Part shown: in pieces, positions 4,589 to 27,538 of the stretch
How positions within the stretch are numbered: the stretch's first letter is position 1
Layout: each line of letters begins with the position of its first letter
From: a virus
IMG/VR virus record: IMGVR_UViG_3300009537_000112
Location: 1 to 30,640 of that record
Direction: 5' to 3' (one strand)
DNA length: 30,640 bases
The notes under the pieces: generated by a model
What the model saw: only the letters and a program-made list of their open reading frames with translations
Databases searched by the model: none
What the model was told of the DNA's origin: nothing
Position numbers and translations under genes: made by a program

Positions 4589-5239
4589 TCACCCCCTTCC
4601 TTTGCTTGTGTTGTCCTCTGGTTGTGGCACGATTGCGTCACTGGTAGCTGTGCCGTGTAGGCACATCCATGAAAATATCACCCTCTTCTCGTCTGTCAGG
4701 AAATCTTCCTCGATCTCGACGCCGCACAAATCCATCGGGCCACACTCGGCGCGGTCGACGGCCTGATCTTCGCATCTCGGCCGGTTCGCTTCGGCCAGGG
4801 CTTCTAGTTCGCGGGGTAACATACCCTGTCGTGCGACGAGGCTTCCAGCAATCATCCATTCCAGGTGCCTCTTTTCACATTCGAGCTGCAGGATAGCGAG
4901 TCTGCGCGATTCGACCCATGCCGACGGGCAAAGCTTCAGTTCCGCATCGTTTTCCTTCCAGCATTTGATCAGGGCGTCTATCTCTGAGATGGTTTGCGGA
5001 CAATCATCCTCTTCTCCAGTCAACCATCCCAGAGGGTCGTCTGTGAGTGCAACTGGCAGAGTATCGACAGTGAAAAAGTCATCAGCAAATCCGACTAAAT
5101 GCAGAAAGTCCAGACTCCGGTCGGTTGGGTCTGGTGAGCCATAGCGCTCGATTATTCCACCCTGCCGCAGAAAAACCTTGCACTTGTGTCCGTTATGGCC
5201 GAAATACTCGCGAATAAACGCTGCGTCTGCTTTGGTCAT
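4589..5239 (-). CDS. Uncharacterised 216-aa first gene of the moron-like cassette
   Basis: The start is set at MTKADAAFIR because AAAGGAG precedes that ATG; an in-frame ATG 36 nt upstream has no SD. The protein is acidic, with a run EEDDC and several scattered Cys residues, and a long helical middle (RRLAILQLECEKRHLEWMI). No catalytic motif or membrane segment is recognised. It is the first gene behind a near-consensus promoter. Its base composition looks more AT-rich than the structural genes beside it, which fits a separately acquired gene. Confidence 0.65.
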   Translation of the reverse strand: MTKADAAFIREYFGHNGHKCKVFLRQGGIIERYGSPDPTDRSLDFLHLVGFADDFFTVDTLPVALTDDPLGWLTGEEDDCPQTISEIDALIKCWKENDAELKLCPSAWVESRRLAILQLECEKRHLEWMIAGSLVARQGMLPRELEALAEANRPRCEDQAVDRAECGPMDLCGVEIEEDFLTDEKRVIFSWMCLHGTATSDAIVPQPEDNTSKGRG

Positions 5240-5282
5240 CTGCGTCTCCTTTGCGGTTGCGGTTGATTCGTTCACTACAGAC

Positions 5283-5311
5283 AGTATACTGCATCAACCG
5301 GACATTGTCAA
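5283..5311 (-). promoter_or_regulatory. Near-consensus sigma70 promoter of the moron-like cassette
   Basis: On the minus strand, TTGACA (5306-5311) and TATACT (5283-5288) are separated by exactly 17 nt, matching 6/6 and 5/6. It lies about 44 nt before the chosen start of the 216-aa gene. A short inverted repeat, GTTTA...TAAAC, sits at about 5335-5351, upstream of the -35 box. Confidence 0.88.
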
Positions 5312-5370
5312 GCACAAAACGACCCCGGAATATGTTTAGGTGAAATAAACCTGGTGGGGAGGGCGGTAGG

Positions 5371-6666
5371 TTACCGGCTGCGTTCTAGTTCCCGCCGGAG
5401 CTGCTGGTTCTCCTGCTCGAGCCGCTCGATACGTTCGTCTAGTTTGCGGATTGCCAGGAACGACATGGAGATTGACGTTATCGGATCAAACGCCGGAACC
5501 TGTTGTTTTCCCATGTTTTTGGCGTACCAGGGGCCGTTCCCGTGAAGGTCTCGCGGGTAGATTACGGGGCCGATGAACCGTTTCGGCTTGCCGTTCGGGT
5601 TGCGGTAGTTTGAGTCTCGGTATTCCCATTGGTATAAAGGTATCCTCTTGACCTCCTCCAAGGCTCGCTCCTCGTTGTCGTAGCGCCGGATTCGGGTTTT
5701 GGCCTGGTACCAGGAGGTCTGATCCCCGACCACGGACCCCGCGGTGTCTGACACCCCAGGACTTCCCGACGATCCAGTTGGGGCCGCGGTATGCTGACGC
5801 AGCTTGCCCGCAGCATCGGTCCAGTAATACTGTTGGGTAGCGTCTGCCTCTCCCAGCACCAGGGTTCCCGCCGCAGGACCCTCCGCTCCTGCGTTTGAGT
5901 TGCGCCCGATAGATACCGATTGACCCCTCACGTTATTTCCCTGGTCTACTGCGTTGATTACCAGATCTTGGTCCTCGCTGAATGTAAACACTGCCGTTCC
6001 TGCACTCCGGATTACGAAGTTATCCCCAGCAGAGGTGGCGGAGTAGTTCAGGGTGAGGTCCCCGCCATTGTTGTAAATCTCCCCGACCTTACTAGAGGCA
6101 GCCCCGGACCCGGAAAACGTCACTTTCTCACCCGAGGCCACCCAGATCTCTCCCGAGGTGTCGAGAGAGAGCGTCGGCGTAGTCCCTACCGCGGAGCCTC
6201 TTCCCAGGACCAGCGTGTCCGCTGAGTCATCCAGCCCCAGGTAATAGTCCTGGGCGTTCCCGTCCCAGACGATTTTCGAATCCGATGCCGCCCCGGTTCC
6301 CACCGTCAGGGTGAGCCCGATAAACTGGTACTGCTCGGTGATGTTGTCCACCGTGTACACCAAAACGTCCGCTGAGGTGTAGACATCAATCCTGTAACTC
6401 AGGGACTCATCCAACCAGATATCGGCTCGCCCGGCTGCGTCCAGGACGACCGGGTTGGCGTTCACGCTCCCCTTGGTGGAGTCGGTGTAGCTGGCCTGGT
6501 TCGTCGTCGTGCCGGCGATGTAGGTGTAGACCTTGCCGGAGGCCAGTGGGTTTCCATTGGTGTCGATGATCTGCTGTTTTGGCACCCACGGGATGGCGTC
6601 CTGAGCCACCAGGGCCGGGACTCCCATTAGGGTTGCGAGTAGAAGTATTTGTAATATTGTCTTCAT
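5371..6666 (-). CDS. Tail fibre/spike with signal peptide and C-terminal coiled coil, 431 aa
   Basis: I set the start at MKTILQILLL because an AGAGGA SD precedes it. The first 21 residues form a Sec-like signal peptide (hydrophobic core, ALVA then Q). Residues about 28-120 match the head-binding type N-domain of phage spikes (NGNPLASGKVYTYIAGTTT, then VVLDAAGRADIWL). The middle is beta-rich (LVLGRGSAVGT, VTFSGSGAASS). The C-terminus, about 315-431, looks like an S74-type intramolecular chaperone region with WYQAKTRIRRYD and ends in a coiled coil (LDERIERLEQENQQLRREL). It is the last virion gene in P22-like order. The signal peptide is unexpected for a cytoplasmically assembled tail part. Confidence 0.8.
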   Translation of the reverse strand: MKTILQILLLATLMGVPALVAQDAIPWVPKQQIIDTNGNPLASGKVYTYIAGTTTNQASYTDSTKGSVNANPVVLDAAGRADIWLDESLSYRIDVYTSADVLVYTVDNITEQYQFIGLTLTVGTGAASDSKIVWDGNAQDYYLGLDDSADTLVLGRGSAVGTTPTLSLDTSGEIWVASGEKVTFSGSGAASSKVGEIYNNGGDLTLNYSATSAGDNFVIRSAGTAVFTFSEDQDLVINAVDQGNNVRGQSVSIGRNSNAGAEGPAAGTLVLGEADATQQYYWTDAAGKLRQHTAAPTGSSGSPGVSDTAGSVVGDQTSWYQAKTRIRRYDNEERALEEVKRIPLYQWEYRDSNYRNPNGKPKRFIGPVIYPRDLHGNGPWYAKNMGKQQVPAFDPITSISMSFLAIRKLDERIERLEQENQQLRRELERSR

Positions 6667-9933: not shown

Positions 9934-12900
9934 TAGTACCACCCTCCCATTGCTCTGTTAGGGACCGGCATCTGCCACTTCGTCATCGGCGGTGGGCCGT
10001 AACTCGGCGGAGGTCCTATCGGGCTCTGTTGCTGATTCATCTTTGTGATCACGGCGTTGTTGGCCGCCGTGTTGTTAGCCGCCGTCTGCACTGTTTGAGG
10101 TCCTAGTATTCCCTGCGTTGGCGGACTGTAAGTGTAACCCAGAGGACCTCCCTGGCCTCCCGTCCCCGGGTACCACTGGTCCGCGATGGGTCCTTGATTC
10201 CAGGGATTCGGACCTCCCGGTCCCGTCGGACCCGCCTGGGTGTAAGTCTGCTTAGGATCCCAGGGGTTGGCCCCTAAGGGATCGTAGGATAGGCCTCCGC
10301 CTTGCTGCGGATTCGGTGGCGGAGGAGGTAGAGCTGTTTTCAGGGGCGGTGCCGCGACAGGGTCTTGATCCCAAGGGTTTGGGCCGCCCTGGGGGTTCGG
10401 AGGAGGTGGCGGAGTCGAATAGAACTTGTTCGCATTTGGGTCTGGTGGCAGGAATTGCTGCTTTACCGCCTGGGTGGGTCCTTGAGTTGAATCAAAGGGG
10501 TTCGGGCCGAGCTTGTCGTAGTTCAATCCTCCCGTGCGCTGAGATGTCAAAGTAGATCCACCAGCAACTGGTGTCGGCATTATGCTCGGGAGTCCTCCGG
10601 GCGTCGGTACCGGATCAGGAGTTCCCAGTAGATCTCCTTGGTTAAACCCCACCATACTGTCGGTATAGCTCGGGTTCGGATCCCAGGGGTTTGCTCCGAG
10701 CTTGTCATAGTTCAGGGCGGGCGGCCCACTCTTGAAGGCGGCTGGGGCCTTGGTTGGCGGCGGAGGCGGCTGCACCACGTCTGGGGTCACGTCCTTGGCC
10801 GTCGTGTCGATTACCCTGGACGCTGACGCCACCGACCCGGGGGCCGCCATCTCCGTTCCCATGAACTGCTTCATATCTATCCCCGGATACCCCCCCACAG
10901 AGTTTACGGAGGTCGTCGGAACAGGCGTTCTCTCGTATGTCCTCATATTAGTGAGGTAAGGTTTCCCCGATCCGTCACGGTCCAGCTTGAATCCGGGGGG
11001 AACGTCGTAGGTGATTCCGCTAATTGGGTCATATCCCGCTGCCTGCGATCCGGTCACCCGGCCCGATCCTCCGCCCTGGGGTCCTAGATTGGGAGCTCCT
11101 CCACCAGTAGTCGACTCCGAACTCCATTTCGCTTCAGCTTCCGGGTACCCACCAGGGCCAGCGCCTTTACCCGTAGGTGTGCCGGCCCCTCCGCCACTAC
11201 CTGCACCAGGACCACCACCGGGAGCCGCTCCGCCGCTACCGGCAAACATGCCGTAGAGGTCTCCTACGGTGATACTGCCGTCATTGAATGCTCCTATCAG
11301 GTCCTCAAACGACATCCCGGCCAGTCGTGGATCAAGACCTCCACCGCCGCCCCTGGTGGAGGAGAAGTTCGTTTCTGGGTACGCACTCTGCTTGCCGTCC
11401 GGGTTCCTGGGGTCGTAGTAGAGTTCGTCGCCACCTCCGCCGCTGCCGGGATAACGCCTCAAGACCTCCTGCTGTCCCAGGTTGGCTAGATTAGCCAACC
11501 CTTGACCGTAGGCGTTACCGACCCCGATAGCCCCGGCTGCCGCGGAGTTTCCCATCGATTGATAGTTGGACCCCACCCGCGACGCGATTCCGGAGTTGAC
11601 TTCTCCAACGAACCGCCCACGTGCGATTCGCTCATTCTCGATAAAGCGGATCATCTCAGCTTGTTCAGACGCCCCCAACTCGCCGAACCTCTGGTAATCG
11701 GCTGCGTCCATTTCGCCACCCCGCGCGATCATGTCGCTGAGGTACCGTCCGTATTCCCTGGCCTGAGCAGAGGTCATCTCCCCTTCCCGGGCCCGGATGT
11801 CGCCCTCATACCTTCCCTGATCCAGACGATCCGCAGCGAGGTTTCCGCCTAAACGATTCAAAAGGTCAGACTGGTAGCGTCCTGAGCTCACGATATCCGC
11901 GGCCTCAGCATCCCCTCTTGCCCTGCTCAGATCCGACCCGTAGAAACCGGCCTGCCGCAGGTCATCGGCGGTCTGGTAACCGCCCCGCTGCTTTGCATCA
12001 GCCATCCAGCGGCCCTGATCCGCAATCTCGGCCGCCGTCATCTCACCGCCACGGATACCAGTTTCTGCTAACCAGCGGCCCTGCTCTCCGATATCCGCCG
12101 CCTCGAGGTCACTTCTCCGCAGCTCCTCATCAGCCATCCAGCGGCCCTGCTCTCCGATGTCTCCGGCTTCCAGTTCTGATCGCCGCAGTTCCGCATCCGC
12201 CATCCAGCGGCCCTGGTCGGCGATATCCGCCGCTGTGCGTTCTCCGCTCCTTGCGGTGTTCTCCCCTACGAACCGACCAAGATCGGAAATCTCGTCCCCG
12301 GCTCTCCGGGCCACTTCGCGGGTTCCGGACGCCCGGTACATGCCCGTATCCATCGCCCTGTTTCCGGACCTGATCCCGAGGTTCTCTTCGACTCCGGAGG
12401 CATACGCTCCGTAGCGGTTGATGTCGTCTGCCGCTCCTCGCCCGAACTCTGATTCCGCTCCTACATTCAGGGCGGCTGCATCCTGACCCACCCCGACTAA
12501 ACCGGATAGCCGCTCATAGCGCTTATCCTGATCGGTCTGGAACTCGTTAAACTTTCTGCCGTAGGCCTTGCTGTACTCGTCGGACGCTACCCCCTGAATG
12601 TTCCGGTTCAGCTCCAGCGCCGCTCGTCCACTCAGGAGTCCGCCACGACCCGCAGCGGACCTTTCCGCGGCCTTCTGGGCCTGCTCGAGCCGGAACCGGT
12701 GACCCGGATCTCCTTCGAAGTCCTCAGCGGTGTAGGAGAAGGCCTTCCCCAGTCGCCCCTCCGTACCCATTTCGGCCTGGAGGGCGTCGGCCCCGGTGAT
12801 TCCGAGAGCCGAATAGGGCGAGGTTTCTCCGCGCTGCCGGCCCAGGACATCGGCGCGAGTTCCAAGAGACTCGAGCTTTGCCGACTTGGCAAGATTCAGT

Positions 12901-20432: not shown

Positions 20433-20708
20433 TCACAATCGCGCCAGAATCTCAGGTTCCCGGGTAACCAGGATCTCCTGTCCGTCTAATTCCATCTCCT
20501 CTACGTGCCAGTTGGAGATCAGTACATGGTCTCCCGGGGCGACAGACATCGCCTTGCGCTCCCCGTTCTTGAGCCGGCGGCCCGGGCCCACCGCGACCAC
20601 CTTAGCTTGCTCTGACTTTTCCTGGGCCTTTGGCGGGATCCAGATATGTCCGATCTTTTCACCGATCTTGAATCTCCGCACCCAGACCACGTCATCAAGT
20701 AACGTCAT
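20433..20708 (-). CDS. groES: Phage GroES (Cpn10)-like co-chaperonin, 91 aa
   Basis: The protein aligns by eye along its length with bacterial Cpn10. Residues 16-30 form the mobile loop with the GroEL-binding hydrophobic triplet (GHIWIP, triplet 22-24). Residues 37-43 are VVAVGPG, the conserved strand. Next come GERKAMSVAPGDHVLIS, matching the G-D-x-V-x-x element, then ELDGQEILVTREPEILARL, the last strand and helix. The length is near the usual 95. It starts inside the portal stop (ATGA) with GGGGAGG upstream. It probably acts as co-chaperonin for host GroEL in folding coat or another virion protein, as T4 gp31 does for gp23. Confidence 0.87.
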   Translation of the reverse strand: MTLLDDVVWVRRFKIGEKIGHIWIPPKAQEKSEQAKVVAVGPGRRLKNGERKAMSVAPGDHVLISNWHVEEMELDGQEILVTREPEILARL

Positions 20709-22786
20709 ACCGTCCTCCCCAGGGCTTGCTGCTCGATAAAATCGCCCATCCTCTGCAATTCTGCACGCATCGCTTCACGTTCGGAGTCGTTCTGGATTCG
20801 CTCTTCCGTTTTGATTAGATCGATGCGGGTTCGGAGCCACTCAATCCGCTCCTCGGATTGCAGTTTCATCTGCTCGATCTCCATCTTACTCTGGAGCTCC
20901 AACTGCTTGCCCTGGATCTGGGCCGCCATCTGTTGGTTCTGGGCCGTCGCCTGCTGGAGCTGTTGCTGTAGCTGTGCGAGCTGCTGCTGGACCTGAGGCG
21001 GAACCTGGGGCTCCGCGTCTCCCTCCTCCTCGAGAAGGTTTGGAGGAACCATCTTCTTGAGCCGCTTTGCCAGCTCAGGGGCTCCCGGCCAGTCCATGTT
21101 CTCCACCATGAGGTCGCCCATCCACTGGATGGCCCCGGGATTGGCCGTCAGGAACCTACCCATAGCGTCCAGTGCAGCCTGTCGCCGGGTCATAAACGAC
21201 GGGCCGGCAGAAACCGTTACGTCGTAGGTCCCGACCCCGATATTGTAGATTTTCTCCACGGCCCCATCTTCTTGAGGTTGCTCCTCCAGCGCCGGGGCGG
21301 CCGGATCGTTTACTAGTGACACCCTCTTCTCGGTGTTGTCGGCTCCGATAATTCGGTCAATCCGGGGAACATCGTAGATATGAGGGATCAGGTCAACCAG
21401 GATCCGGCCCAGGTGCCTCAAGGATCGGTGGAGGTTGTCTGCGTAGTTGTAGGTCGAGGAGTCGCCCTCAGCCTGCCTCTGGGCGATGGCAACTCCGGAC
21501 TCCTGCGGTCCCTGGTCTCCTAACTGGGCTCCGTAGAGACCCATTGTAGCCTTCAGGTCCTCGGCGGACTGCTGCTTCGCCATGCTGATTGCCTGGACCG
21601 GTGGCTCGAACGGCTGCCGTGCCGGGCCTGACAGAGGGTTCCCGGCATCGTCGGTAACCGGATTGTACTCGAGGTATCCGTAGGAGGTCGTATTGGCCTG
21701 ACCCCAGTTATTTTCGTAGCCTTCGAAGGTCCCCTTCGGTCCGATGAAAGGAGCTTTCGGGGCCAGGGCGATCATTTCTGTTTGGGCAGAGTTCCAGTAG
21801 TTGTAAGCTCTCTGCGGATCCTTGGCGAACCGGACCATGCCCCAGAACTTGCGCTTTCCCTCGATGTAGGACTCGTCGCCCAGGACCGGTACAATCGGGA
21901 TCCACTTTCCCGGCCAGGGCTTCTCCTCGAGGATCTCTGTGGCCACAATCTTTTGCCACTTTACCGACCGCTCCTGAACCCAGCGTTCCCGCTCGACCTT
22001 GTCCTCCAGGAGGGCACGTTCCTTTGCGCTCAGTTGGTCCGCATCCACCTCATCCCAATAGACGGTCTCTCCGCCCATCACAACCAGACGCCGGCGCTTG
22101 GTTGAAACCTCGAAGTACTCAGCAACCCGGATACTGTCTTCTCCCACCCACACCTGAGCATTGTTCTCGCCCTGGTCCGACCACTGCTCGAGAGCATCCA
22201 TGTCGACATCCGGGTAGAGTTTCTTGAAGACATCCTTTGGGATCTCCTCGGTGATAAACGCGTATTGGGCGTCCGAGAGATCCGCCTTGTTGGCGGCTGG
22301 GTCGATGTATACGGTAAACGGATTCGGGATCCGCTCAATCAGGATCTCCTGGTCGAAGGTCTTCTCCGAGATGTAGTCGGTCAGGACCCGCAGGAAACCG
22401 AATCCTATCTTTGCCTGGTGCTCTGCGGCCGTGTCGTACGCCACCTCTGCGTCGGACCGGACTTCAATGTGTCTGATGATTCCCTGGAAGACCTCTGCGA
22501 CCTCTGGGTCGGAATGGGAGTCCACACCGGAGACCTTGACCGCCGGACGGTTCTGCCGCTGCTCGTTCGTTACCTGCTTGATAAACTGGGGGATGCGGTT
22601 GATCGTCAAGCAAGGCCGGGAGTTGGAGGCCCGCTCGCTCCGCATCGAGGCGTCCCATTGGTCTCCCTCGGCGAACCGGCCATCTTCGCGGGCTTCTTCC
22701 CGCCCGGATGACTCGTACTCCACGCATTTCTCATATCGTTTAATGGCTCGCCTCAGGAGGTCGTTGTCTTCAATCTTCTCTGGCAT
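20705..22786 (-). CDS. P22 gp1-like portal protein, 693 aa
   Basis: The N-terminus with RFAEGDQWDASMRSER, RPCLTINRIPQFIKQVTNEQR and GIIRHIEVRSDAEVAYDTA is typical of P22-like portals. The central wing and stem regions follow (IERIPNPFTVYIDP, GPFEPP-like loops). The C-terminal 100 residues form a Gln-rich coiled coil (LQQQLQQATAQNQQMAAQI, then KMEIEQMKLQSEERIEWL), matching the barrel helix of P22 gp1. Length is near P22 gp1 (725). Its ATG overlaps the TerL nuclease-half stop (TAATG), and its end overlaps the GroES-like start. Confidence 0.92.
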   Translation of the reverse strand: MPEKIEDNDLLRRAIKRYEKCVEYESSGREEAREDGRFAEGDQWDASMRSERASNSRPCLTINRIPQFIKQVTNEQRQNRPAVKVSGVDSHSDPEVAEVFQGIIRHIEVRSDAEVAYDTAAEHQAKIGFGFLRVLTDYISEKTFDQEILIERIPNPFTVYIDPAANKADLSDAQYAFITEEIPKDVFKKLYPDVDMDALEQWSDQGENNAQVWVGEDSIRVAEYFEVSTKRRRLVVMGGETVYWDEVDADQLSAKERALLEDKVERERWVQERSVKWQKIVATEILEEKPWPGKWIPIVPVLGDESYIEGKRKFWGMVRFAKDPQRAYNYWNSAQTEMIALAPKAPFIGPKGTFEGYENNWGQANTTSYGYLEYNPVTDDAGNPLSGPARQPFEPPVQAISMAKQQSAEDLKATMGLYGAQLGDQGPQESGVAIAQRQAEGDSSTYNYADNLHRSLRHLGRILVDLIPHIYDVPRIDRIIGADNTEKRVSLVNDPAAPALEEQPQEDGAVEKIYNIGVGTYDVTVSAGPSFMTRRQAALDAMGRFLTANPGAIQWMGDLMVENMDWPGAPELAKRLKKMVPPNLLEEEGDAEPQVPPQVQQQLAQLQQQLQQATAQNQQMAAQIQGKQLELQSKMEIEQMKLQSEERIEWLRTRIDLIKTEERIQNDSEREAMRAELQRMGDFIEQQALGRTV

Positions 22787-23526
22787 TAGACCCCCATCCA
22801 GGACCGTTCATTCGGTCGCCCCTGGTAGCTCATCTGGTTCCCGGTCTTCTTGACGGGCTCACACTTCATTCGGTCGACGCCACTCATCAGCAAGTAGCGG
22901 GTTGCATCCATAAGGTGATCCTGCTTTTTGACCACCCGGCCTTTATCGTCCCGACGGTAAAGGCGGAACTCCTCAAACCACTTCTGGCAGGACGCGAACA
23001 CCTTCAGCCTACCTATCGACAGCTGGGTCCAGACCAACCGCAGCCCTGCCTCGACGGCGTTATTGGCCGGCTTCACATCGAGGCCCATTTCCCGATACAT
23101 TTTCAGCAGCTGGATTCCGTCCTTCTGCGCTCGGCCCCGGGATGCCGGATCCACTACACCGGGAATCCATGCGCCGCGGCTCTTGATCGCTCCGGAATGG
23201 ACGATAGGCTCCGCTTCGCCTCTCCAGTGCTCGCTGTACAAGTAGATTGTTTGGGTCTCTAGGTCCTTGGCCCCCCATATCGCCGCAGTGCAGTTCCAGC
23301 CGACATCGAACCCGTAAGCCCGGGGCCAGTGGTCTGGGAGATCGAAGTCCGCGATCCGGATGTCCTCCTCTGGAACCGTGTAGATCTTGCCGGACCCCAG
23401 GACCGGGACCCCCTTGAATCTGGCTTCCCTCTCCCACTCCGGGTACGAGTTCCAGAGTAATTGCCGCTGTTCCTCGCTCAGGTGGGGCACTTCGTCCCAG
23501 GTGCAGCCTACTATGAATCGGCTCAT
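22786..23526 (-). CDS. terL: Large terminase, C-terminal half (lid and RNase H-like nuclease), 246 aa
   Basis: This ORF is only the second half of a large terminase. It begins MSRFIVGCTWDEVPHLSEEQ, a sequence normally found inside TerL just after the ATPase core. The nuclease acidic residues are all present: FDVGW (residues about 74-78), VVDPAS (about 120-125) and DHLMDATRY (about 204-212). YLYSEHWRGEAEP and AVEAGLRLVW are further family marks. The ATG overlaps the stop of the tiny membrane ORF (ATGA), and its end overlaps the portal start. The matching ATPase half is 2.2 kb away at 25704-26408. It could act in trans with that half. Confidence 0.93.
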   Translation of the reverse strand: MSRFIVGCTWDEVPHLSEEQRQLLWNSYPEWEREARFKGVPVLGSGKIYTVPEEDIRIADFDLPDHWPRAYGFDVGWNCTAAIWGAKDLETQTIYLYSEHWRGEAEPIVHSGAIKSRGAWIPGVVDPASRGRAQKDGIQLLKMYREMGLDVKPANNAVEAGLRLVWTQLSIGRLKVFASCQKWFEEFRLYRRDDKGRVVKKQDHLMDATRYLLMSGVDRMKCEPVKKTGNQMSYQGRPNERSWMGV

Positions 23527-23624
23527 CTCCAGTGCCTGATGTACTCGACCAGGAAGAAGGTGCCCCCGATAAGAATCAGGAGGATCACTCCTCCCAACGT
23601 CGCCCAGAATACCGGTTCACTCAT
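23523..23624 (-). CDS. Very small single-span membrane protein, 33 aa
   Basis: The ORF reads MSEPVFWATLGGVILLILIG, then GTFFLVEYIRHWR, a clear single membrane span with a basic C-terminus. Its ATG overlaps the previous stop and its stop overlaps the TerL nuclease-half start, both by ATGA. That precise fit makes it likely to be translated. The function is unknown. Its last third is coded over what looks like a leftover TerL reading frame (see findings). Confidence 0.6.
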   Translation of the reverse strand: MSEPVFWATLGGVILLILIGGTFFLVEYIRHWR

Positions 23625-23881
23625 TCAAGGTTCCTCAGCTCTTCCTGAATGAACTCACTCACCTCCGCCGGCGTCTTGAACAGGTGCCGGTCCTCGCCCC
23701 GGGTGTCGTAGTCGTAGATCTGTGCCCCGTCCTTGTCCTCTTTTCGGTACTCACACTCCACCACATAGCCGTTGGCTGCGTTGTCTATTCGGATCCCTCG
23801 TAAAGTCTGCTTGGCGACCTCCCGCTTATCCTTGCCGCTGGCCGTCTTGATCCCGGTGACCTCTGCTAATACTTCAGCCAT
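23621..23881 (-). CDS. Uncharacterised 86-aa protein in the terminase insertion
   Basis: The ATG at 23879-23881 overlaps the previous stop (TGATG), with GGAGC upstream. The protein begins MAEVLAEVTGIKTAS and has a basic middle (GKDKREVAKQTL), a beta pair (GYVVECEYRKEDKD) and a C-terminal helix (PAEVSEFIQEELRNLE). No family is recognised. It could be a small DNA-binding or head-associated factor. Confidence 0.65.
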   Translation of the reverse strand: MAEVLAEVTGIKTASGKDKREVAKQTLRGIRIDNAANGYVVECEYRKEDKDGAQIYDYDTRGEDRHLFKTPAEVSEFIQEELRNLE

Positions 23882-24363
23882 CACGTGCTCCTCGGAGGTT
23901 CGCCCACTTCCGCCTCGGTGAGTTCCTCGAGGCAGGCCGTCGCGCTCAGGGTGATGGACCCCGTCGGAGCGCCCTCGAGGCCTACCACTATGATTCCCCC
24001 CGGTGGGATAAGCGGCATTTCCGCCACCCGTACCGGGAGAAAGTAGAATCCGTCCTTGATGTCGGCGCTCTCCCGGTGCAATACCACCCCTGCCGTTCCC
24101 CGGACGGTATTGTTGCGAGATACCGTTCCTCCGTACACTGGTGCCCGCGGATTGTACGGAGCCGGCGTCACGGTAGCGACCGGGGTTCCCGCCACCGTGT
24201 TCCTGTGGACCGAGAACGGCAACACCTCACTGGTGTCCTGCGCCTCCTGGGTCACGATGGCCCAGCGGAGTCGGGACCAGTGTTTCGCCGATGCGGTGAT
24301 CTCAAGCACATTCTGGGCCGCCGTGGCTGCTACCGCTCCCGTTACTACTGCATAATCAGGCAT
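23881..24363 (-). CDS. Possible capsid decoration or head-fibre protein, 160 aa
   Basis: The protein is beta-rich and starts MPDYAVVTGAVAATAAQNVL. RLRWAIVTQEAQDTSEVLPF and PPGGIIVVGLEGAPTGSITL look like parts of a jelly-roll or Ig-like virion domain. It has no signal peptide. An AAGGGAGAG SD lies upstream in a 30-nt gap after the beta-helix gene. It lies between the two terminase halves, so it may be cargo inserted into the packaging module. Decoration is the best guess from fold character alone. Confidence 0.5.
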   Translation of the reverse strand: MPDYAVVTGAVAATAAQNVLEITASAKHWSRLRWAIVTQEAQDTSEVLPFSVHRNTVAGTPVATVTPAPYNPRAPVYGGTVSRNNTVRGTAGVVLHRESADIKDGFYFLPVRVAEMPLIPPGGIIVVGLEGAPTGSITLSATACLEELTEAEVGEPPRST

Positions 24364-24393
24364 TTTCTATACTCTCCCTTCGGGTTCGTTTCG

Positions 24394-25383
24394 TTAGGCT
24401 GCTTCCTCCAGCAGCATCAGTCTCCGCTTCCTCATCCTTCGGTCCAGAGCCGTTCTCCCCGATGACCGCTCCGCCGCCTGGGCGTCTGCCCCAATACTCC
24501 ACCGGATAATGTTCTCTCGGTCAATGTCATCCGTGAAGGAGCCGCTCAGGTCCGCTCCGTATCCCTTAGCTCCGGCATCATCCAGGTCCAAGTGATAGTC
24601 CTTGTCACCCGCGTTAGCAAAGGTGAAGGTCTGACTAGTCCTGGAGGAGGTGCCCGGAGCAGTCCCATCCTCGGAGGCGTTATTGTTTCCGGTCCACGTT
24701 CCGGTCGCTCCGTTGTCGTCAAAGTCATTCCCGGTACTCCCGGTTGCCAGGCAGTTCTTCGCCACCGTTGTACCGTTATGTGCCCAGAAACCCGCGCCGC
24801 CTGCTCCCACTGATGTACAGTTCAGAAACTGCGCCGCAGAGCCCACCGCTAAGAACCCCCTCCCGTCTGGATTGATTGAGATGCAATCAATCACCTTCGC
24901 GCTAGTATCACTGCGTAACCCCGTTGTGAAACCGGCTCCGGCATTCGTCGGAGAATCAGCAATACACCCCACCATATCCGCACCAGCGGAAAAAGTAGAA
25001 CACCACCAGACTGGATATTCGATAGAGTCAGTGATGGCGGAGGTTCCTACCAGATCCTGGAAAGAGGAGTTCGCCTCCTGTATCTGAAAGGGTCCCTTCA
25101 CCGCGCCCCCGTCGAATATAACCCCTGTATCGGGGGTCCCGTCATGGAAGGCTCCGGCGGCTGGACGAACGATCCGGAAGTAACTGGCGCTCGTAGTTGC
25201 TCCCGCTAGGATCACGGCCACATTGTAGGTCCCGGCATCACACTCCAGCACTTCGCTCTGGGTGGCGGAAACAAGGTTGATATCGGTGTCGCTTTCCCAG
25301 ACGGCCGGGTCGGTGTAGTCCCCTCCGCTGGACTTCAGCGTAGAGATATTCTCATTCACTCCGGTTCTGCGTGCTGACGCCAT
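24394..25383 (-). CDS. Right-handed beta-helix protein, 329 aa
   Basis: Short strands with turn-rich repeats (KVIDCISINPDGRGFLAVGS, AAQFLNCTSVGAGGAGFWAH, TTVAKNCLATGSTGNDFDD) are typical of parallel beta-helix proteins such as pectate-lyase-like and tailspike domains. The N-terminus ENISTLKSSGGDYTDPAVWE is the usual opening of these phage proteins. No catalytic triad can be assigned. The C-terminus is basic (RRMRKRRLMLLEEAA). It could be a virion surface or carbohydrate-binding protein. It is the largest gene within the terminase insertion, and TAATG overlaps its upstream neighbour. Confidence 0.75.
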   Translation of the reverse strand: MASARRTGVNENISTLKSSGGDYTDPAVWESDTDINLVSATQSEVLECDAGTYNVAVILAGATTSASYFRIVRPAAGAFHDGTPDTGVIFDGGAVKGPFQIQEANSSFQDLVGTSAITDSIEYPVWWCSTFSAGADMVGCIADSPTNAGAGFTTGLRSDTSAKVIDCISINPDGRGFLAVGSAAQFLNCTSVGAGGAGFWAHNGTTVAKNCLATGSTGNDFDDNGATGTWTGNNNASEDGTAPGTSSRTSQTFTFANAGDKDYHLDLDDAGAKGYGADLSGSFTDDIDRENIIRWSIGADAQAAERSSGRTALDRRMRKRRLMLLEEAA

Positions 25384-25703
25384 TACACTCCAATCTTACG
25401 GTCGGTCACAAACCCCTGCTTGCGTTTCGGAGGTCCGAACGTCACCCGCTCACCGTTCTGCGTCATATGCCCCGCCAGCTTGGAGAGATCCGCTCGGAAC
25501 GGGAACTTCTCGCCCTTGCCCCGGCGTTCGAAGAACTCGTCAACGAACGTCTGGGTCAGCTCCATTAGGACGATGGTGTGATTGATCAACTCCTTCGAAC
25601 CCACCCGGCCCAGCGGCTTTCGAATGTTCACGACGTCCCCGGGAGAACGGCGCTTCGCACCGGGTGTATTGACTGTAGAGATCCAGACTTCGTAGAGAGC
25701 CAT
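25383..25703 (-). CDS. Uncharacterised 106-aa protein, first gene of the terminase insertion
   Basis: The ATG follows the stop of the ATPase half with no spacer (TAAATG), so it depends on coupled translation; AGGTAAGGTG lies upstream. The protein starts MALYEVWISTVNTPGAKRRS, then PGDVVNIRKPLGRVGSKE, a KRR-x-GD-x-V pattern I associate with a small protein of unknown function in related phages. Its C-terminal third is basic. There is no endonuclease motif (no HNH, GIY-YIG or LAGLIDADG), which argues against a homing-endonuclease origin for the insertion. Confidence 0.65.
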   Translation of the reverse strand: MALYEVWISTVNTPGAKRRSPGDVVNIRKPLGRVGSKELINHTIVLMELTQTFVDEFFERRGKGEKFPFRADLSKLAGHMTQNGERVTFGPPKRKQGFVTDRKIGV

Positions 25704-26408
25704 TTACACCTTACCTCCCGGCAGAAAGCTTAGTACAAGCGGTGTCAGGCCCATCAACGGAGTAAAGGTGAGCAGCACCAGGCCGTCTACAGTGACCGTC
25801 CGCATCAGGCACTCCCCGTAGATGTCCAGGGGCGGCTCCTCATCGAGCCAGATCACGTGCTGTTCGGTTCCTTCGAATCCTTCCCGGCCCTGGTCGTAAG
25901 ATTTGAAATTAAGGGTGCTATGCCCTCCGGTTACGTGCTTGACGTAGACCAGCTCGAGGGCCTCGGGAATGCCCGCCTTGCGTGAGGTGTGGATGATCTT
26001 GTCCGCCGGGATCATGCCGGTACCCAGGGAGGATACCGGGCCAACCATCTTCATTTGCAGGATATCTCGAACCGTTTTTCCGGTGTTCCCGGCTGCCCAG
26101 GCCATCACCGGATCCCGAAACCGCCGGCCTTCCCACCAGTCCGGATAGATCCCGGTTAAATGGCAGGTGACCTCATATCCGCCAACCCCCTCGGTCTTGC
26201 CCACCCGGTTGCCGGCGATAAACGCACGCTCGCAGTGTTCGCGTCCTGCCCTGAAGAAGCTGAGGTGCTTCGGGTAGAGCTCCCGGCGCAGAGGTCCGGA
26301 ATCTCGGTAGAAATCTTTGATTCTCCGCGTCTTGGCTAGACGTAGAGCTATCTGAAGGTTCTCGAGACTGACCTGGGAGACCGATCCTAATTTTTGTGGT
26401 GCCGGCAT
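25704..26408 (-). CDS. terL: Large terminase, N-terminal half (packaging ATPase core), 234 aa
   Basis: The Walker A element is AFIAGNRVGKTEG (about residues 63-75), Walker B with catalytic glutamates is HVIWLDEEPP (about 184-193), and the coupling motif is LLTFTP (about 213-218). The ORF then stops at LSFLPGGKV, where an intact TerL would run on to the lid and nuclease. The remaining half is at 22786-23526. It starts at ATG 26406-26408, 15 nt after an AAAAGGGGGAGA SD; a 10-codon ORF starts closer to that SD in another frame. Without its lid subdomain the ATPase would probably need the other half in trans. Confidence 0.93.
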   Translation of the reverse strand: MPAPQKLGSVSQVSLENLQIALRLAKTRRIKDFYRDSGPLRRELYPKHLSFFRAGREHCERAFIAGNRVGKTEGVGGYEVTCHLTGIYPDWWEGRRFRDPVMAWAAGNTGKTVRDILQMKMVGPVSSLGTGMIPADKIIHTSRKAGIPEALELVYVKHVTGGHSTLNFKSYDQGREGFEGTEQHVIWLDEEPPLDIYGECLMRTVTVDGLVLLTFTPLMGLTPLVLSFLPGGKV

Positions 26409-26438: not shown

Positions 26439-26930
26439 TTAGCCTGATCCGTTTACGTGCCCGTTCTCCTGACCCTTATCGGTCATCCTTTCTATCATAC
26501 GCTCAATCTCCGACGCGGTGAACACCTCGCTGACCATTGCCACGATGGGCGGCTGGTTCCCGATCGTCTCCACCTTTGACCGGATATCGAATCTGTCCCT
26601 GTACTTCTCCGGGTTCGCTGCCTTCATAAGGAATATCAGCAGGGTGTCCGAGTAGTTGAGCTTGGTTCCGCAGACCTCGCCCTGGTAGAAGACCGGTTCT
26701 TCTACTCCCTGGACGGCCCTACGGTGCGCTTCGTCCTCGAGCAGGCTCAGGGCCTCGTCCCGGGCCTTGTCGAGTTCCTTGACGTACTCCGGGTCCGTCG
26801 CAACCCACTTATAATGTGCTGCCGTAGAAATCCCGGCCGTGGCAGCGGACACGTCTATCCGGGCGGTTGCCCGGTAGGCGGCCAGAAACTTGGCCTGGTT
26901 CCGGAGTTTGTCGTCCCTTTTTCTTGCCAC
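26439..26930 (-). CDS. terS: Small terminase subunit, 163 aa
   Basis: It lies directly before TerL. It has an N-terminal HTH-like part (QAKFLAAYRATARIDVSAAT, then STAAHYKWVATDPEYVKEL), a central helical oligomerisation region (EALSLLEDEAHRRAVQGVEE), and LLIFLMKAANPEKYRDR, a phrase typical of phage TerS proteins of this type. The C-terminus is a charged tail that would contact TerL or the portal. The likely start is a GTG at 26928-26930, with only a weak SD (GAGAAAG). Its 5' end overlaps the broken end of the methylase ORF in another frame. Confidence 0.78.
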   Translation of the reverse strand: MARKRDDKLRNQAKFLAAYRATARIDVSAATAGISTAAHYKWVATDPEYVKELDKARDEALSLLEDEAHRRAVQGVEEPVFYQGEVCGTKLNYSDTLLIFLMKAANPEKYRDRFDIRSKVETIGNQPPIVAMVSEVFTASEIERMIERMTDKGQENGHVNGSG

Positions 26931-27538
26931 TGACTTTCTCTTACTCTACTACAACTCCTCGACGCCTTGCACGTTGTGCTTTCGCCACGGCCTCGAGCGA
27001 CGCCATCCCCACAGGCAACGCGAACCCGTCTCAGTCGCTCTGATAGCTGCTGGAAATAGGCCGATAAGTCGGTTCGCTGCCGGTTGACGCCTCGGCCTGG
27101 ATTGCCCAGGTGAGGGAGCCCACGAGTTACCTTGCCGGATTTGTTGCACCATCCCGTACCACTCCAGGCACACAGCCCCCAGACCCACCAGCCGGCAATC
27201 TTGACGTCGTAGAAGTCCGGTTCTGTCTTCATCCTCTCACGAAAGCCCTCTTGATCCACCAGCCATTGGTGCCGTGCGCTCAGGTCTGCCTCGTTTACCG
27301 GCCAGTCCGCGTGAAAGGCCACGGCGGCTGGATCAGAAGCCAAGGCCCGCCAGAAGTTAGACAGGTAGCAATCCTTGTCGTTGACCGTCTCGACCTTTGG
27401 CTTAGTAGGGCGACCCAGGAGCACCGCCAGCGATCCGGCGAAAGGCTCGACGTAGTTTCGGACTGGGCCGAACCTCTGCCAGACTAGATGGGCCACACGG
27501 GATTTTCCACCGAACCAGGGGAAGGGAGCCTTCAGCAT
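26855..27538 (-). pseudogene. Truncated D12-class (Dam-like) adenine methylase
   Basis: Residues 1 to about 175 fit a Dam-like N6-adenine methylase: PFPWFGGKSRVA at the N-terminus, NYVEPFAGSLAVLL (AdoMet motif), ETVNDKDCYLSNFWRAL, then WWVWGLCAWSGTGWCNKSG and LSERLRRVRVACGDG. In family members a DPPY catalytic motif follows. Here the frame instead runs into Ser/Arg-rich sequence that is simply TerS coding DNA read in another frame. The C-terminal third with DPPY is missing, so methyl transfer is unlikely. It overlaps the upstream small gene by 7 nt. Confidence 0.8.

Follow-up and report, generated by a model that had tools for sequence, protein, structure and literature searches.

A large terminase encoded as two genes in a P22-like head module and recurrence of the same split among related phages

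The large terminase (TerL) is among the most conserved of phage proteins and is often used as a one-gene marker. In the viral DNA studied here its gene is present as two open reading frames with five small genes between them, which raises the question of whether this is a decaying gene, a gene whose products are rejoined, or a packaging motor that works as two polypeptides. The window, i.e., the whole stretch of DNA analysed, is the complete 30,640-bp record IMGVR_UViG_3300009537_000112 of IMG/VR, a linear virus record representing an incomplete fragment.

Head module and terminase genes of the window

The window possesses a P22-like late/head module, the whole set of genes of which is read on the minus strand. 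It consists of the small terminase TerS (26439..26930; phrog_4044, E-value 3.8e-34), the first TerL polypeptide TerL-N (25704..26408, 234 aa), five small genes, the second polypeptide TerL-C (22786..23526, 246 aa), a P22-like portal protein (20705..22786; P22_portal, E-value 5.6e-181), whose start overlaps the TerL-C stop by 1 nt, and further head genes. Downstream of the portal lie a GroES-like gene (20433..20708) and genes for a scaffold, P22 coat protein, and head-closure and ejection proteins, as identified with Pfam and PHROG. The head module is otherwise complete, and the TerS - TerL - portal neighbourhood of P22 gp2-like TerL proteins is present.

TerL-N, the ATPase core polypeptide, matches Terminase_6N (E-value 2e-12) over positions 2-149 of 215 as well as phrog_31467 (E-value 4.5e-62), while TerL-C matches Terminase_6C (E-value 9e-10) and phrog_5653 (E-value 5e-22). 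Ahead of its Terminase_6C match, residues 4-54 of TerL-C match the 3′ end of Terminase_6N that TerL-N lacks (positions 163-213), and the two proteins are therefore consecutive pieces of one TerL. TerL-N ends in TFTPLMGLTPLVLSFLPGGKV-stop and TerL-C starts with MSRFIVGCTWDEVPHL. Walker A (GNRVGKT), Walker B with the catalytic Glu (LDEE) and motif III (TFTP) are all located in TerL-N, with nuclease Asp residues found in TerL-C at D74, D126, D203, and D207. Each TerL half gave one match within the 30.6-kb linear record and no other TerL of the same family was found there; an earlier note on this DNA had named an additional complete terL as a possible refutation. ATPase and nuclease thus lie not on the single polypeptide of a standard TerL but in two ORFs 2.2 kb apart and, as the same is the case in 58 of 161 relatives (see below), the TerL of the window is considered to be a two-gene variant.

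Five genes occupy the gap, here referred to as cargo. Cargo gene 1 (25383..25703, minus strand, 106 aa) has no Pfam or PHROG family; its ATG follows directly on the TerL-N stop (TAAATG), and its ribosome site GGGAGG sits within the final TerL-N codons. Cargo gene 2 (24394..25383, minus strand) encodes a 329-aa protein which by eye is beta-helix-like, a label that reflects the appearance of its sequence; it has no Pfam or PHROG match and no homologue in the collections searched, and a single-sequence AlphaFold model of it gave a pLDDT of 33. Cargo gene 3 (23881..24363, minus strand, 160 aa), earlier labelled decoration-like, is likewise without a Pfam or PHROG family. Cargo gene 4 (23621..23884, minus strand; 87 aa from a GTG start, or 86 aa from the next ATG) has a GTGA overlap with gene 3, and cargo gene 5 (23523..23624, minus strand) codes for 33 aa with one hydrophobic segment and a weak match to phrog_32436 (E-value 0.006). 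The latter has ATGA overlaps at both ends, the second being with the TerL-C start, and may serve coupled translation in the window. No homologues of any of the window's cargo proteins were found in the collections searched. Going from TerL-N to TerL-C, the genes first abut (TAA-ATG), next overlap by 1 nt and then leave a gap of 30 nt, and the last three joints are overlaps of 4 nt each (GTGA, ATGA, ATGA). The earlier note had described a terL in two ORFs with 2.2 kb and five genes between them, intact Walker A, Walker B and nuclease Asp positions, and tight joints throughout; the coordinates and the joints agree with this description.

Position of the cut in the protein

The site of the cut was placed on an AlphaFold2 model of L163, a fused relative (56-sequence alignment, pLDDT 92, pTM 0.84). 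It maps to a loop at approximately residues 233-241, where there is a local dip in pLDDT (80), flanked by a helix (223-228) and a strand (242-247), the latter being followed by helices 257-266 and 269-277. The solved ATPase domains of Thermus phage P74-26 (4znl) and T4 gp17 (2o0j) align up to L163 residue 282, and the solved nuclease domains of P22 (4dkw), SPP1 and G20c begin at residues 281-285. The division between ATPase and nuclease that had been proposed in the earlier note therefore has to be moved: the cut is within the ATPase domain and precedes the boundary by about 45 residues. TerL-C thus supplies the final ATPase-core strand in addition to the lid and the RNase-H-like nuclease, and without it the ATPase half is incomplete.

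The D6E TerL structure has a P-loop arginine in contact with the lid, to which it is believed to relay hydrolysis in cis (PMC5727402). The window has the equivalent arginine (R68) in TerL-N and the lid in TerL-C, and judging from the model the ATP-hydrolysis relay would have to cross a non-covalent joint.

Occurrence of the split in related phages

IMG/VR and a set of bacterial genomes, one per species, were scanned with TerL-N and with alignments of the N half and the C half. A close-relative scan with TerL-C alone gave nothing, but the alignment scan did give relatives. Both halves were found at 232 loci, 165 of them fused and 67 split, and removal of near-copies left 161 rows of which 58 are split, with the same split point throughout. 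The resulting 36% is not an unbiased frequency, since the alignment used to collect the loci itself included split members. The two-polypeptide arrangement that the earlier note thought unusual is thus borne out as a split but is not unique to one genome, and the genomes with the same split that it suggested searching for do exist.

In every split, the N ORF stops about 5-30 aa past the motif TFTPLxGLTxVVxxFLP and the C ORF starts a few residues ahead of the W in (S)(K/R)xxVxAxWDDVPHL. Neither a stop nor a piece in another frame was found within the halves of any of the 161 rows, a test which needs both halves to be recognisable and which badly broken genes escape. With a constant split point in 58 of 161 non-redundant relatives and no break elsewhere, the split of the window is more than a chance event. 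Among the fused relatives, the two matched parts lie 6 to 108 nt apart, a variation consistent with a tolerant loop at the cut site.

Cargo, which the earlier note had placed between the halves and which is indeed there in the window, is absent from 24 of the 58 splits. In these the two ORFs are separated by -8 to +2 nt (16 with a 4-nt overlap, four with 1-nt, two with 8-nt, and two with the ORFs 0 or 2 nt apart). A further 33 have inserts, which are 35 to 6138 nt long, and in the remaining case (L012, a 4-kb contig) the order is reversed, with the C half ahead of the N half. Stop-start overlaps of the ATGA and TAATG kind are frequent and suggest that translation of the halves is coupled.

The same junction occurs in isolates of Azospirillum, Sphingomonas, Aminobacter, Chromohalobacter and Acidovorax. 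When 385 evenly drawn genomes of one alphaproteobacterial class were checked for both halves, 18 gave a clean match of both, 11 being fused and seven split, one of the seven having an internal stop; the split is common in alphaproteobacterial prophages. Two circular records possess exactly one N and one C half and no fused copy of the same TerL family as that of the window, which is the family covered by this result. These are the metagenome-assembled phage MW202785.1 (40,038 bp) and NZ_CP103299.1, a 54,159-bp phage-like circular plasmid of the cultured bacterium Endozoicomonas gorgoniicola PS125. No cultured plaque-forming phage with a split TerL was found among the relatives.

Evolution, selection and cargo turnover

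A quick LG+G4 tree was built from both halves (161 rows, 425 columns, unrooted). The split/fused label requires 23 parsimony changes on this tree as against a mean of 47.3 for shuffled labels, and at least 10 changes are forced by well-supported branches. A tree with all split rows in a single clade is rejected by the AU test (p 5.4e-9), and a clade of 20 rows, mostly alphaproteobacterial prophages (Roseomonas, Acetobacter, Azospirillum, Sphingopyxis, Metarhizobium, and Aminobacter), is entirely split with a support of 99. The split has therefore arisen repeatedly, and at least once long ago. The sister of the window (L086) and its relative of highest identity (L163, 64%) are both fused. An unrooted tree gives no direction, and it is from the rarity of split TerL outside the group that the fused form is taken to be the older state; re-fusion of split halves is possible. 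An internal start in fused terL that would predispose the gene to splitting was also considered but not supported, as a start with a ribosome-site-like motif was present in 5 of 103 fused genes compared with 5.6% of control positions.

Purifying selection acts on both halves. In split pairs that are 80-98% identical, dN/dS is mostly 0.04-0.3 for the N half and 0.04-0.18 for the C half, the exception among N halves being that of L134, which looks recombinant and is the one such case seen. The split rows have kept the N, R, G and K of Walker A, the D-E-E of Walker B, the T and P of motif III and the first nuclease Asp, and other catalytic positions show the same variation in split as in fused rows. 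Reassortment of halves between phages was considered from the raw correlation of N and C distances (0.22 in split, 0.79 in fused rows) but was not supported, the values being 0.40 and 0.47 at matched divergence.

The cargo is swapped between otherwise similar loci. L010 and L020 have halves that are 92% identical and inserts with nothing shared; their DNA homology runs to position 2520 in L010, where the TerL-N stop is at 2519, and resumes from 4983, 27 nt before the TerL-C ORF (from 5010). The same pattern was found with L195/L205 and with L102/L106, the last two belonging to one and the same strain. In four Acidovorax prophages the matched halves are separated by 14, 950, 1005, and 2083 nt. 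Cargo proteins across loci are mostly unrelated to each other, and include a Dam methyltransferase (L184), DUF1643 (L113), beta-helix or tail-fibre-like proteins (L022, L137, L128), LPD23 (L005), and gp49/66 (L021), along with many to which no family was assigned.

Alternative explanations and the proposed motor

The window is a single metagenomic virus contig, and a split terL could in principle be a product of assembly or sequencing error, yet with the same junction present in many independent genomes, including isolates and closed circular records, this can practically be dismissed. An unlikely reading is that such genes are dead or dying copies in defective genomes, with packaging performed by another terminase or not at all. 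The window is an incomplete fragment, and degenerate prophage copies do occur among the relatives (L083, L084, L135, and G149). L135 and G149 carry internal stops, and L083 and L084, the nearest relatives of the N half, retain TerL-N without a C half beside host or mobile genes; these two were also considered as single-half motors, which was rejected as their surroundings look like remnants. Decay is contradicted by the constancy of the site, by selection on the halves and by their persistence: breaks in a dying gene would fall anywhere, but all 58 are in one loop with none seen inside the halves, dN/dS is well under 1 for both and catalytic residues are retained, and there is a deep all-split clade. 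The two circular genomes with their single N and C halves and the otherwise complete head module of the window also speak against it.

Rejoining of the halves into one TerL by a self-splicing intron, an intein, ribosomal frameshifting or bypass has a precedent in the terL of Jug phages, where the interrupting group I introns do splice (PMC12363816), but is very improbable here. No Rfam match at the gathering threshold was obtained for the window and 13 split loci, the insert of the window gave chance hits only at E-values up to 10, with no group I or II intron, and in the 24 insert-free splits there is no room for one. Beyond its last conserved residues TerL-N continues for just 5-30 aa or so, which is too little for half an intein. 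Two of 26 adjacent splits contain slippery heptamers, and the halves were on that account not classed as a programmed frameshift gene pair; a stretch of at most 15 nt with both frames open is found in eight of the 26, and in the window frameshifting is impossible with 2.2 kb between the frames. As regards ALTERNATIVES, an intron was not found, an intein has no room and slippery sites are absent in 24 of the 26 adjacent splits. In agreement with the earlier note, which saw no homing endonuclease or intein motif and proposed the search with intron models, no homing endonuclease was found with Pfam and/or PHROGs in the cargo of the window or in the scanned cargo proteins of other loci.

The same cut having arisen independently many times in related phages, the motor is very probably made of two proteins which assemble into a two-polypeptide TerL protomer, with the gap between their genes acting as a slot for cargo. 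The earlier note's picture of a stable, expressed-looking motor with cargo between its halves is well supported by this comparison of sequences. One operon would give two polypeptides for one protomer of the packaging motor, TerL-N bringing the P-loop, Walker B and motif III and TerL-C the last ATPase-core strand, the lid and the nuclease. The halves may associate by strand complementation and through the native domain interface, the protomer then being a heterodimer. As to a possible order of events, a tolerant surface loop would first have acquired a frameshift or stop, giving two coupled ORFs, and the gap between them would then have become a slot in which accessory genes were gained, swapped and lost with both halves under selection. 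Cargo is not needed for the split but comes and goes afterwards in the late operon.

In models of force generation the P-loop core and the lid are taken to be parts of a single chain. That the two have been separated in nature many times independently shows that a non-covalent joint at this point is tolerated or favoured by evolution, and the natural split TerLs offer existing material for experiments on the coupling between ATP hydrolysis and DNA movement. More speculatively, the motor of the broad P22-like group might be an obligate two-subunit ATPase that docks by completing one beta sheet, in which dissociation or exchange of the lid-nuclease subunit could switch between cutting and pumping and the recurrent split could provide a cargo slot in an essential operon.

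Comparison with known systems

TerL itself, intron-split terL (PMC12363816) and split phage DNA polymerases (PMC10580990) are already known. In the open-access literature no paper was found on a TerL working as two genes without splicing or on a recurrent split at one site, and the only split, fragmented or bipartite terminase found there was the intron-split terL of the Jug huge phages. The latter has been seen as two to three fragments with genes between them (PMC12363816), which resembles the situation in the window. However, the group I introns of Jug splice the mRNA back, whereas for the split TerL described here no intron was detected, nothing intervenes between the halves of adjacent splits, and homing endonucleases are not what makes up the cargo. 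The OM43 phages MEP401 and MEP402 have a split DNA polymerase for which no intron was identified (PMC10580990). This is a different enzyme, and in the passages concerned splicing is left open and recurrent independent splitting at one site is not described.

The split halves seem to be present in databases already, as they are matched separately by PHROG 31467 ("unknown function", 261 positions, N half) and PHROG 5653 ("terminase large subunit", 199 positions, C half), but these families are not linked to each other and that of the N half is not recognised as a terminase. In a RefSeq record, the halves are annotated as "terminase family protein" and, for the C half, "hypothetical protein". With the C half labelled in this way and the N half in a PHROG of unknown function, surveys based on TerL may miss or miscount such phages.

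Among characterised terminases the comparison is with P22 gp2, which belongs to the same family. No PDB entry matches the family profile better than the P22 TerL nuclease domain (4dkw; E-value 3.8e-57), with a structural Z of 25.3 over 183 residues, and the head module is also shared (P22 portal, P22 coat). The difference is that gp2 is one chain, whereas in the window the protein is encoded by two genes, with the cut within the ATPase domain.

Split terminase loci of unusual arrangement

Acidovorax sp. A1169 carries two related prophages on two contigs (L102 and L106), and the site at which the large terminase is split is free of cargo genes in one of these, while ~950 nt are present there in the other. 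The two prophages are a natural before/after pair for the cargo. The order of the halves is reversed in L012 (2095-3965), a 4-kb contig, with the nuclease half, TerL-C, lying ahead of the ATPase half, TerL-N, and a 112-aa ORF located in between. In locus L134, TerL-N (9998-10615) is far more diverged from its relatives than is TerL-C, with the exception of its last ~40 residues, which looks like the result of recombination inside TerL-N.

The closest relatives in sequence of the TerL-N of the window (65%) are those of two Acidobacteria genomes (L083, L084), where the neighboring genes are unlike a phage head module. No TerL-C was found in a search of these two genomes, leaving TerL-N as an orphan, and both loci look like prophage remnants.

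Other genes of the window

The window encodes a GroES co-chaperonin (20433-20708, minus strand; Cpn10, E-value 5e-18) between the portal and scaffold genes, whose partner is presumably the host GroEL, acting on the P22-type coat protein. An ORF on the minus strand (26855-27538), overlapping the adjoining small terminase gene by 76 nt, has a partial match to the D12 adenine methyltransferase family, limited to the first ~64 of 253 positions, and is probably a truncated or frameshifted methyltransferase.

Plasmid-borne relatives

In the circular plasmid of Endozoicomonas gorgoniicola PS125 (L250, NZ_CP103299.1), TerL-N is publicly labeled "terminase family protein" whereas TerL-C (4680-5402) is a "hypothetical protein", the nuclease half thus having been missed by public annotation. 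A relative of the split TerL is also present on five Acinetobacter baumannii plasmid records, with 57% to a split N half. TerL is fused in both records inspected (two of the five); L249 and L252 are circular A. baumannii plasmids of ~55 kb. The A. baumannii plasmids bearing this relative look like phage-plasmids.
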